Shown: one piece after another, positions 60,465 to 64,000 of the stretch
Numbering within the stretch: the stretch's first letter is position 1
Layout: the number at the start of each line of letters is the position of its first letter
Source of the DNA: Chitinophaga sp.
GTDB taxonomy: Bacteria; Bacteroidota; Bacteroidia; Chitinophagales; Chitinophagaceae
NCBI RefSeq assembly: GCF_019236475.1
Contig: NZ_JAFAIX010000012.1
Location: forward strand, 62,001 to 126,000
Reading direction: 5' to 3'
Length of the DNA stretch: 64,000 nucleotides
Program-made: the position numbers and the translations under genes
Notes under the pieces: model-generated
What the model was told of the DNA's origin: nothing
What the model saw: only the letters and a program-made list of their open reading frames with translations
Database searches by the model: none

Positions 60465-62228
60465 TTACCCAGCCGCGGAGGCGTTAAACTGCATGCTATG
60501 CAGCTTGTAATAAAAGCCCTCCAACTTCAGTAATTCTTCATGACTTCCCATCTCCTTAATCTCGCCTTTATCCAGCACAATGATCTTATCCGCCTCGCTA
60601 ATGGTAGACAGCCTGTGCGCGATGATAATGGCCGTCCGATCAGCAATCAGCTTATCAATGGCATCTTGAATCAGCATTTCAGACTCTGTATCAACGGAAG
60701 AGGTGGCTTCATCCAGGATCAGGATAGCCGGATTGTACAACAGTGCCCGCACAAAGGAAATCAACTGACGCTGCCCCAAAGACAAGGTACTTCCCCTTTC
60801 CATTACCTGGTAATCATAACCGCCAGGCAGTTGCATAATAAAGTCATGAATACCAATTAGTTTGGAAGCAGACACGACCTCCTCCCTACTAATGGCGCTA
60901 TTGTGTAAAGTGATATTATCGTAAATCGACCCGGCAAACAGGAACACATCCTGCAATACCACCCCAATTCGGCTACGTAGGGCATGCAGCGAGTAATCTG
61001 GTAACGCTATCCCGTCTATCTTGATGCTTCCCTGTTGGATCTCATACAAGCGGTTTAAAATGCTGATTATAGTGGTTTTGCCAGACCCGGTATGCCCGAC
61101 GATTGCCACGGTATCTCCTGGCTTCGCATCGAAGGTGATATCTTTCAGGACATATCGGTCATCTACGTAAGCAAAGGAAACATGATCAAAAGAAATAGCC
61201 CCTTTCATGTCTTTTGCAGATGCTGTGCCATGATCAGGGATATAATCCTCATTATCAAGGATTTTGAACACACGTTCACTGGCCACCATTCCCATTTGAA
61301 GGGTATTGAACTTATCTGCCAGCATACGCAGTGGGCGAAATAACATGTTGAGGTACATGATAAAGGCAATCATCACCCCTTGTGTTACTTCGTAATTCAG
61401 CACTTTATTAGCGCCCCACCATACCATCAATCCCAAGGATATGGCCAGGATAATTTCCACTACAGGAAAGAACACAGAATAGGCAAAAATGGCATCGATA
61501 TTCGCATTCCGGTGATCCTTGTTGATCTGGCGGAAACGGGCCAATTCTCTCTTTTCAGCGGTAAATGCCTGCACTACCACCATTCCGGTGATATGCTCCT
61601 GTACAAACGCATTCAGCGCCGATACGGCATTACGTACCCGGTAAAATGATTTATTCACACTTTCCTTAAAGATGAAAGTAGCAATGATCAGGATAGGGAA
61701 AGGAGAAAGGCTGACTAACGTGAGACGCCAGTCCTCCATAAACATCACCACCAAAATGGCAATGATCATCAGTAGGTCTGCTACGATACTGATAATCCCC
61801 TCAGAGAAAACATCATTAATCGCCTCAATATCATTGATGGTACGGGTTGTAAGGGTACCAATAGGGGTTTTATCGAAGAAGGCGAGATTAAGATGCACGA
61901 TTTTCTTGTAAACCGTTACTCTTAAATCCTTTACGACCGACTGTCCCAGCCAGTTGGTCAGGTATGAAAAGAAAAACCTTACTACCGTTTCTAACAGTAG
62001 TAAGGCTATCTGTATAATCGTTACCGTAACCAGCATGCGTGTCAACTGGTTAGCGATATATTTATCGACGGTTACCTGTATCAGGTATGGGCGCAGCGGC
62101 GATATCACCGCCAACACCACTGTCAGGAACATGGAAACATAGAAGGACCGTTTGTACGGTGCAGCAAATGAGAATATACGTCTCAATAAACTAAAATCGA
62201 ATACCTTCTTTACTGCCAGATTTTCCAC
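60465..62228 (-). CDS. ABC transporter ATP-binding protein/permease (exporter type)
   Basis: TM domain, IVGHTGSGKTTIISILNRLY, STLSLGQRQLISFVRALLYNPAILILDEATSSVD. Confidence 0.94.
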   Translation of the reverse strand: MENLAVKKVFDFSLLRRIFSFAAPYKRSFYVSMFLTVVLAVISPLRPYLIQVTVDKYIANQLTRMLVTVTIIQIALLLLETVVRFFFSYLTNWLGQSVVKDLRVTVYKKIVHLNLAFFDKTPIGTLTTRTINDIEAINDVFSEGIISIVADLLMIIAILVVMFMEDWRLTLVSLSPFPILIIATFIFKESVNKSFYRVRNAVSALNAFVQEHITGMVVVQAFTAEKRELARFRQINKDHRNANIDAIFAYSVFFPVVEIILAISLGLMVWWGANKVLNYEVTQGVMIAFIMYLNMLFRPLRMLADKFNTLQMGMVASERVFKILDNEDYIPDHGTASAKDMKGAISFDHVSFAYVDDRYVLKDITFDAKPGDTVAIVGHTGSGKTTIISILNRLYEIQQGSIKIDGIALPDYSLHALRSRIGVVLQDVFLFAGSIYDNITLHNSAISREEVVSASKLIGIHDFIMQLPGGYDYQVMERGSTLSLGQRQLISFVRALLYNPAILILDEATSSVDTESEMLIQDAIDKLIADRTAIIIAHRLSTISEADKIIVLDKGEIKEMGSHEELLKLEGFYYKLHSMQFNASAAG

Positions 62229-62250: not shown

Positions 62251-64000
62251 CTATGATTTCTTTTCGTCTTTCATGATCTGCCTGTAAGCTTTGATGAAAA
62301 TAGCTCCCAGGTTTTTATGCGGAGGTACGTAATCGCTGAACAGTTCTTTGTTACGGGCATCTCCTGCAAATTTCTTGGCCAACTGTGCCCACATTACCAC
62401 CCAGTCTACATTTTTACCACTTCTGATCACATCTTCCAGGCTGCGAATGATCGGTTCATTTACGAAGCGGGTACCTACCTGTTTGGAGGAAATGATATGC
62501 GCTTCAGGCGCTTTTTCCAGTACCACGGCCAGGTTGTGATAACCACCGCAAGAACCCAGAATCACAATTTTCGCAGAGCTCTGTAAGTTGTCGAGGGTTG
62601 TATTCACATGGTAGCTGTGACCACGATGTATAAAGATACTAGGATGTATGTCATTTTCATCCAAGTAATCAGACAATTTTGCAATAGCTTCTTTATCATC
62701 TGGTTCATCCAGAGGCAAATTCGCGAATATAGTAGTCGGTTTCCCTTTCAATGAACTGATCTGTACCCAATATTTGTTTTTCTGCACTTTCCATTCTCCC
62801 GCAGGGAAATTGGTCATGAAGCTAGCGAAGGACTCCTGCCCGTCTTTATCTCCGTAGAAGAATACTTGCTGGAATACGCGGCCACTGTCGCTTTCCAGGC
62901 TGTTGTATGCCACATAGTTAATTGGAGGCAATGAGAATTTCGCAGCCATATCGGTGGCTTTGGAGGAATCGTTTTCGTTTACAGATTCTGTTTCGAACAG
63001 ACTGCTCAGCAACTGATAGATCACGGTACCTCTGCGGTCATTATGTTTTCTTACATAACCCAGGTTTTTACGTACTTCTGCACGGAGGAAATCCAACAGT
63101 TTAGGATCGCGGATACTTCCAAAGGAGTTGGCCACATCCACTGCGTCTTCCAGGTCTTCTGTTTTCTCCAGGTTCTGTACATATTTCTGCATCAGGTAGT
63201 TGGAGTTCTCTGGCGCCATGGACTTCAAGAAGTTGTCCAAGGTATTGAAACCAGCCGCCATGGCAATGAATTTCTTGAAACGATCGAAATTCACCATCAT
63301 GAGTAAACTATCGCCACGAGGAGGTTTCATACGAGCCATCATTTGGTCGTATAAACCGGCGTTGTTATGATTGGTATAACTGGAGGTATACAGCTCTTCC
63401 TGGCCATTCACGATCAGGTAATAGAGTTCTTCTGGGGTGAAGTCGTTCACGATGCGGAAACGCACAGGAGCCGATTCTTCGTGGAGGTCATTTACTTCGC
63501 GGATATACAGCAGTGATTTAGCCTGCATGTTTTCCATCATGGCCTTCATCCCGATAGGCGTTTTCCCTTCGGCCTTCATTTTCTGCATCGCGATCATGGA
63601 TTTCACCATCTGGCGATAGTAAGAACGGTCGGTTTCAGTGACTTTCTCCAGTTTCTCCAGGGTAGTAGTGCCATTCAGGATTTCATCAATGAAAGGCAGG
63701 ATACGGGTACTCTGTGAAGAACGGCCTATCTGTACAATGGTTTGAACAATTGGATCAGGATTCCTACGGATGGCACTAGCCATTGGCGTGTAGGAGGTAG
63801 CATAGGTTAATACCTGGTTAGGGTATTTACGGGCTACTGCCGCCACGATGGAGTCTGTACCAGGATAGTCCAGATACTGTGTCAGTTTAGGCATAATGTC
63901 TTCTAGGTGACTGAAGGCATATTTACCAAATACAATTCCTCTGGCATCATTATAACCGGGGTTATCCTTGAATACTTCAATGAGTTTTAAAGTGCCTTCA
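62251..64000 (-). CDS. Large hypothetical protein with putative clan CD (CHAT/caspase-like) C-terminal domain, partial (runs off the right edge)
   Basis: ORF listed from ATG 63894, but the frame stays open upstream (GTLKLIEVFKDNPGYNDARGIVFGKYAFSHLEDI-MPKLTQ). C-terminal motifs IFIHRGHSYHVNTTLDNLQSSAKIVILGSCGGYHNL. Confidence 0.75.
   Translation of the reverse strand, partial: EGTLKLIEVFKDNPGYNDARGIVFGKYAFSHLEDIMPKLTQYLDYPGTDSIVAAVARKYPNQVLTYATSYTPMASAIRRNPDPIVQTIVQIGRSSQSTRILPFIDEILNGTTTLEKLEKVTETDRSYYRQMVKSMIAMQKMKAEGKTPIGMKAMMENMQAKSLLYIREVNDLHEESAPVRFRIVNDFTPEELYYLIVNGQEELYTSSYTNHNNAGLYDQMMARMKPPRGDSLLMMVNFDRFKKFIAMAAGFNTLDNFLKSMAPENSNYLMQKYVQNLEKTEDLEDAVDVANSFGSIRDPKLLDFLRAEVRKNLGYVRKHNDRRGTVIYQLLSSLFETESVNENDSSKATDMAAKFSLPPINYVAYNSLESDSGRVFQQVFFYGDKDGQESFASFMTNFPAGEWKVQKNKYWVQISSLKGKPTTIFANLPLDEPDDKEAIAKLSDYLDENDIHPSIFIHRGHSYHVNTTLDNLQSSAKIVILGSCGGYHNLAVVLEKAPEAHIISSKQVGTRFVNEPIIRSLEDVIRSGKNVDWVVMWAQLAKKFAGDARNKELFSDYVPPHKNLGAIFIKAYRQIMKDEKKS

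Follow-up and report, generated by a model that had tools for sequence, protein, structure and literature searches.

An undescribed protein family of Chitinophagales and Azospirillum: exported, with two domains and an invariant His-Cys pair

A gene at the edge of the window (the whole stretch of 64,000 nucleotides of Chitinophaga sp. DNA analyzed here) encodes a member of a protein family that is real, undescribed, and spread over two phyla. Its members are exported and have two domains, a helical region followed by an alpha/beta domain that carries an invariant His-Cys pair. Although almost all of the Chitinophagaceae genomes sampled contain it, the family lacks both a name and a domain model, and no relative has a solved structure. 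We favor a function as a cysteine hydrolase, most probably a peptidase, that is exported, probably to the periplasm, and belongs to an undescribed clan-CD-like family, although we regard the scales as standing about level on whether this assignment is right.

Gene structure and protein domains

The window truncates the gene, whose open reading frame ends 452 bases past the window edge, corresponding to window position 64452; the complete frame of 733 amino acids was obtained from the genome (L002:2252-4453:-). The C-terminal peptide in which a preliminary description of this locus had seen a putative clan CD dyad is indeed encoded on the minus strand (window:62539-62634:-, FIHRGHSYHVNTTLDNLQSSAKIVILGSCGGY), and counting back from the stop codon places Cys635 and His612 on exactly the codons proposed for the dyad (Table 1). 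The N terminus of the protein, MRKILIMFLLAVCSSSWVHAQ, resembles a Sec signal peptide, and signal-peptide-like N termini are also found in relatives, including some of the Azospirillum homologues. Since many close relatives lack any N-terminal Cys and end this segment in HAQ, the Chitinophaga proteins are unlikely to be lipoproteins. Within the helical N-terminal domain, the alignment revealed six invariant residues: N321, H324, R331, F332, T356, and S357.

Table 1. Window coordinates of the gene, its predicted domains and conserved residues, and the adjoining exporter gene
Feature	Position	Strand	Basis
MsbA-like ABC exporter	60465..62228	-	Pfam PF00664 and PF00005; best NCBIfam model MsbA, below its cut-off
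Gene portion within the window (residues 152-733 and stop codon)	62251..64000	-	ORF reading
Helical N-terminal domain (residues 152-499 of about 29-505)	62956..64000	-	AlphaFold2 model, alignment
C-terminal alpha/beta His-Cys domain (residues 500-733)	62254..62955	-	AlphaFold2 model, alignments
His612, candidate catalytic base, in HRGHS	62617..62619	-	180/184 relatives
His609, second His of HRGHS, invariant	62626..62628	-	184/184 relatives
Cys635, candidate nucleophile, in GSCGG	62548..62550	-	184/184 relatives; kept in Azospirillum homologues
D535-K-D537, acidic D-x-D-G motif just past strand 1	62842..62850	-	D535 181/182, D537 179/182; invariant with Azospirillum added
Asn665, near-invariant, past the last strand	62458..62460	-	183/184 relatives; kept in Azospirillum
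Trp684 and Trp688, W-x-x-x-W motif	62389..62403	-	W684 184/184, W688 183/184

Distribution and conservation of the family

All 60 Chitinophaga genomes examined, the source of the window among them, have a copy; in one fragmented assembly the gene lies in two pieces. An order-wide sample showed the gene in 33 of the 34 listed genomes of the same family (Chitinophagaceae), and homologues in several other families of Chitinophagales; an even sample of 396 genomes from the whole phylum gave credible matches in Chitinophagaceae only. Weak extra matches in other Bacteroidota and in two of the order-level genomes were rejected as histidyl-tRNA synthetases or short spurious frames. Outside the phylum, tblastn of plasmid records, from which alone the occurrence in Pseudomonadota is known, identified homologues in four species or strains of Azospirillum (Alphaproteobacteria). 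These proteins, annotated as "hypothetical protein," share about 25% identity over residues 320-728 (best E 3e-28) and retain HRGHSYH, GSCGG, D-x-D-G, N665, and both Trp residues, as well as part of the helical-domain motif RFRI...LYTSS. No related gene was found in a phage search.

Across 184 distinct C-terminal domains, C635, H609, R610, G611, S613, G633, G636, W684, Y708, P711, and N714 are invariant, and H612 is replaced in only four of them (by Leu in three and by Tyr in one). In a 24-sequence alignment that includes the Azospirillum homologues, F532, D535, D537, G538, P580, HRGHS, G633, C635, G636, N665, W684, W688, Y708, and P711 are invariant, whereas K657 and Q658 vary once these homologues are added. 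This degree of conservation among homologous domains argues that the His-Cys pattern is not due to chance, and both residues singled out in the preliminary description proved to be conserved. By sequence invariance alone, the putative base could be either H609 or H612. We prefer H612, because it follows a Gly and precedes a Ser, like the His in the gingipain G-H-G, and because it is the one missing from degenerate-looking paralogues.

In other Chitinophagales families, one copy of about 700 amino acids usually accompanies one of about 1000-1150 amino acids, and the two are often adjacent. Some Chitinophagales carry long (about 1000 amino acids) tandem paralogues in which His612 is gone (HRGLS or HRGYS) and Cys is retained. 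His612 is lacking in L098:4178-7189:-, L100:1-2769:+, L289, and L295. Both of those read over their whole length proved to be long paralogues, and three of the group also have CNRN in place of the SKQ motif. As the dyad is intact in the neighboring short copy, where this was read, the arrangement suggests a pair of one active and one inactive protein. Separately, two homologues are broken across several frames (L083:5953-8161 and L087:5881-8129); they come from one complete Chitinophaga chromosome (CP079103.1) and one metagenome-assembled genome, and may be assembly errors or pseudogenes.

Predicted structure

The full-length AlphaFold2 model, computed for the C. dinghuensis copy (97% identical) from 38 sequences (mean pLDDT 84.8), consists of an all-helical region (residues 29-505) followed by an alpha/beta domain, which bears out the helical upstream part anticipated from the sequence. 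The C-terminal domain modeled alone from the window sequence (residues 500-733) reached a pLDDT of 90 and a pTM of 0.89. Its first half comprises a strand (526-532), a helix (536-546), three strands (554-558, 562-567, and 573-578), and a helix (585-599), and its second half a strand (606-610, HRGH), a helix (613-621), a strand (629-632, followed by GSCGG), a helix (638-647), a strand (652-656), and then helices. Thus, the model places His609 and His612 at the end of strand 606-610 and Cys635 just past strand 629-632, with a single helix between the two strands. This is the strand-to-strand layout that had been claimed for HRGHS and GSCGG, with 23 residues from His612 to Cys635, and a His strand, a helix, and a Cys strand in this succession are the defining arrangement of clan CD (PMC4357240). 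The C-terminal ends of the presumed-parallel strands contain nine of the 15 invariant residues (p = 4e-5 for random placement, a value that assumes independent residues and applies to a zone picked with the model already known), and this gathering fits a single active site, as expected. D535 and D537 are located between strand 1 and the start of helix 1 in the model.

In the clan CD core, the strands are ordered 2-1-3-4, with the His past strand 3 and the Cys past strand 4; the C11 family has extra strands 3-4, which resemble the strand meander in our model (PMC4357240). The P1-binding Asp is found on helix 1 in RgpB (Asp163), MALT1 (Asp365), and TbMCA2 (Asp95) (PMC4357240), and D535 and D537 lie near these positions. 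The His-Cys spacing of the present family falls short of that in most of the clan CD enzymes reviewed (42-49 residues in caspase-7, PmC11, and MARTX-CPD as judged from residue numbers; PMC4357240), which speaks against the clan CD assignment.

Searches against known families and folds

When the protein, 20 aligned relatives, and the Azospirillum proteins were compared by sequence with Pfam, NCBIfam, PADLOC, and PDB, only chance-level matches were returned, in line with the earlier remark that no protease family could be named for this gene; a literature search found no description of the family either. Specifically, none of the 1 + 20 + 4 proteins reached the Pfam cut-off for CHAT (PF12770), C14, C11 and C25 gave no Pfam match above cut-off, and HMM-HMM comparison placed no clan CD family at significant probability. 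CHAT received an HHalign probability of only 3-4%, with C635 aligned on the CHAT catalytic Cys. Its score was reached by one of 60 column shuffles and, after the Azospirillum sequences had been added, by none of 80, making CHAT the sole family profile that stands above (nearly) all shuffles. The C14 profile was marginal (4 of 80 shuffles), and those of C25, C11, and GATase were at shuffle level; the C14 and PfpI alignments were rejected because they do not place Cys on Cys. In the same kind of HMM-HMM comparison, the known clan CD families, too, mostly missed each other, C14 and CHAT being the only match, and the lack of a profile match is therefore weak evidence against clan CD.

Foldseek was uninformative for the full-length model. 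For the C-terminal domain, the 50 best PDB matches were mostly small GTPases, at a TM of 0.38 or less, and no caspase, gingipain, C11, or CHAT structure was among them, so that the fold comparison suggested in the preliminary description did not turn out in favor of clan CD. The best 50 matches in the viral library were again mostly small GTPases and included one named clan CD protein, a C11 clostripain relative (TM 0.40, E 0.023), and no match among the best PDB and viral matches listed exceeded a TM of about 0.40. The small GTPases superposed poorly, and we rejected a small-GTPase identity because the P-loop is absent: G-D-x-D-G-x-x-S stands past strand 1 instead of the Walker A motif GxxxxGK[ST]. 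Since the cores of GTPases and caspases share a Rossmann-like character and resemble each other in connectivity, the GTPase matches are not decisive. Taken together, a His-then-Cys pair ending two consecutive strands joined by one helix stands from the original proposal, whereas membership in clan CD is not established.

Gene neighborhood

The ABC exporter mentioned in the preliminary description lies 22 bases downstream, a gap that makes cotranscription with the target gene probable. It directly follows the gene in 48 of 50 Chitinophaga loci and in 11 of 19 other loci, with ATP synthase genes past it. Divergently upstream, a PhoB-like response regulator and a histidine kinase are present in 50 of 50 Chitinophaga loci, and in other Chitinophagaceae or similar genomes the response regulator occurs in 14 and the histidine kinase in 13 of 19 loci. 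The exporter and the two-component proteins were named by Pfam and NCBIfam matches, none of which reached an equivalog cut-off. The two-component pair persists in the loci that lack the exporter (L196, L198, L202, and L203), so its link to the gene is the tighter one. In the stretches scored from other Chitinophagales families, neither a two-component nor an exporter neighbor was found. In 21 of 50 Chitinophaga loci, a gene for a DUF1003 protein (L002:4646-5377:+ here) separates the target gene from that of the response regulator. The Azospirillum homologues (L362-L365) are located on large plasmids; three of the four have ethanolamine ammonia-lyase genes (eutBC) and a LysE transporter nearby, and the A. 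thermophilum homologue lies beside ISAs1 transposases.

Proposed function and alternative explanations

What the analysis shows directly is the residues themselves, how well they are kept in two phyla, the domain organization of the model, and the surrounding genes; catalysis, clan, specificity, localization, and biological role are inferred from these. If the protein is a clan-CD-like hydrolase, the Sec signal peptide would export it, and the alpha-helical domain of about 475 residues may serve as a scaffold, substrate clamp, or regulator. Cys635, ending one strand, would act as the nucleophile and His612, ending the neighboring strand, as the general base. The D535-K-D537 motif is a candidate S1 pocket or metal site; in the former case, D535 and D537, past strand 1, would line the pocket and favor Arg or Lys at P1, as predicted from their position at the start of helix 1, like that of the P1-binding Asp in RgpB, MALT1, and TbMCA2. 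We infer this "possibly trypsin-like" preference purely by analogy. The protein may further have an envelope-maintenance or signaling role tied to the neighboring two-component system and exporter. It is tempting to combine these elements into a new group of clan-CD-like peptidases, exported and specific for Arg/Lys, that join a helical scaffold to a catalytic domain like separase or TPR-CHAT but work in the periplasm. Found in almost all Chitinophagaceae and also in Azospirillum, these enzymes would process envelope proteins and would either be controlled by a dedicated two-component system or act upstream of it; in this full form, the proposal is tentative and, to us, doubtful. A caspase-like protease would come with a defined substrate prediction, Arg or Lys at P1, and, because a two-component system and an MsbA-like exporter adjoin the gene, with a genetic handle on envelope proteolysis in Chitinophagales.

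Alternatively, Cys635 might serve a Rossmann-like cysteine enzyme outside clan CD, with an amidotransferase/PfpI-like nucleophile elbow or as an acyltransferase or ligase. The absence of clan CD folds from the top Foldseek matches is compatible with this idea, as are the G-x-C-x-G motif, whose small residues on both flanks resemble the nucleophile elbow of glutamine amidotransferases, and a local PfpI profile match about as weak as that of C14. However, the GATase profile did not rise above shuffles and the PfpI alignment misplaces the Cys. Moreover, glutamine amidotransferases and PfpI need a conserved His past the nucleophile, and neither the 184-domain nor the 24-sequence alignment contains an invariant His downstream of C635, on which ground we rejected the amidotransferase assignment and consider this class of enzymes as a whole unlikely.

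The remaining explanations dispense with a catalytic Cys, and even jointly we judge a metal-centered or noncatalytic role to be rather improbable. D535-x-D537-G could bind metal in a metal-dependent enzyme or metal-binding protein, leaving Cys and His as ligands or structural residues: the motif directly follows strand 1, is conserved about as well as the dyad, and is reminiscent of HAD motif I or of an EF-hand loop, and one member gave a weak EF-hand_7 match (E 0.089). Yet no HAD family was matched or appeared among the top Foldseek matches, HAD motifs III and IV were not seen, with K657 lost in Azospirillum, and position 1 of the supposed EF-hand loop is Tyr or Phe rather than Asp, which leaves this idea with very little probability. 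Hardly easier to credit is a noncatalytic, GTPase-like or binding domain that serves the neighboring two-component system as a scaffold or sensor in the periplasm. Small GTPases are indeed the best Foldseek matches, His612 is lost in some long paralogues, and the two-component synteny is conserved; but the Walker A motif is missing past strand 1, GTP is not expected in the periplasm, and it is difficult to see why a strand-end Cys and His should be invariant in two phyla if no chemistry depended on them.

Comparison with known systems

Among established clan CD families, C11 clostripain (PmC11) likewise has additional strands separating helices 1 and 2, and His and Cys on consecutive strands (PMC4357240). 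The viral C11 relative aligns across the whole C-terminal domain, its TM being one of the two highest listed, but the C11 profile gave no match and the N-terminal part differs. The C25 gingipains and PorU are, like the present family, exported proteins of Bacteroidota with G-H-[G/S] around the His, and gingipains have an Asp near helix 1, as in RgpB Asp163 (PMC4357240). However, a type IX sorting domain was not seen at the C terminus of this protein, and its C25 profile score is that of shuffles. The same genome encodes true CHAT and C25 (PorU/gingipain-type) proteins elsewhere (G000:C5:94740-95528 and G000:C3:188076-189182), from which this family is separate. CHAT proteins (PF12770; TPR-CHAT/Csx29, with a separase-like architecture) likewise combine a helical N-terminal scaffold with a C-terminal His-Cys domain and have two conserved His residues ahead of the Cys, arranged as H-x-x-x-H, whereas here they form HRGHS, 23 residues from the Cys. 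Because of its signal peptide, the present family is exported while CHAT is cytosolic, and should it prove to be a caspase-like protease, the family would represent an exported counterpart of the separase/TPR-CHAT design.
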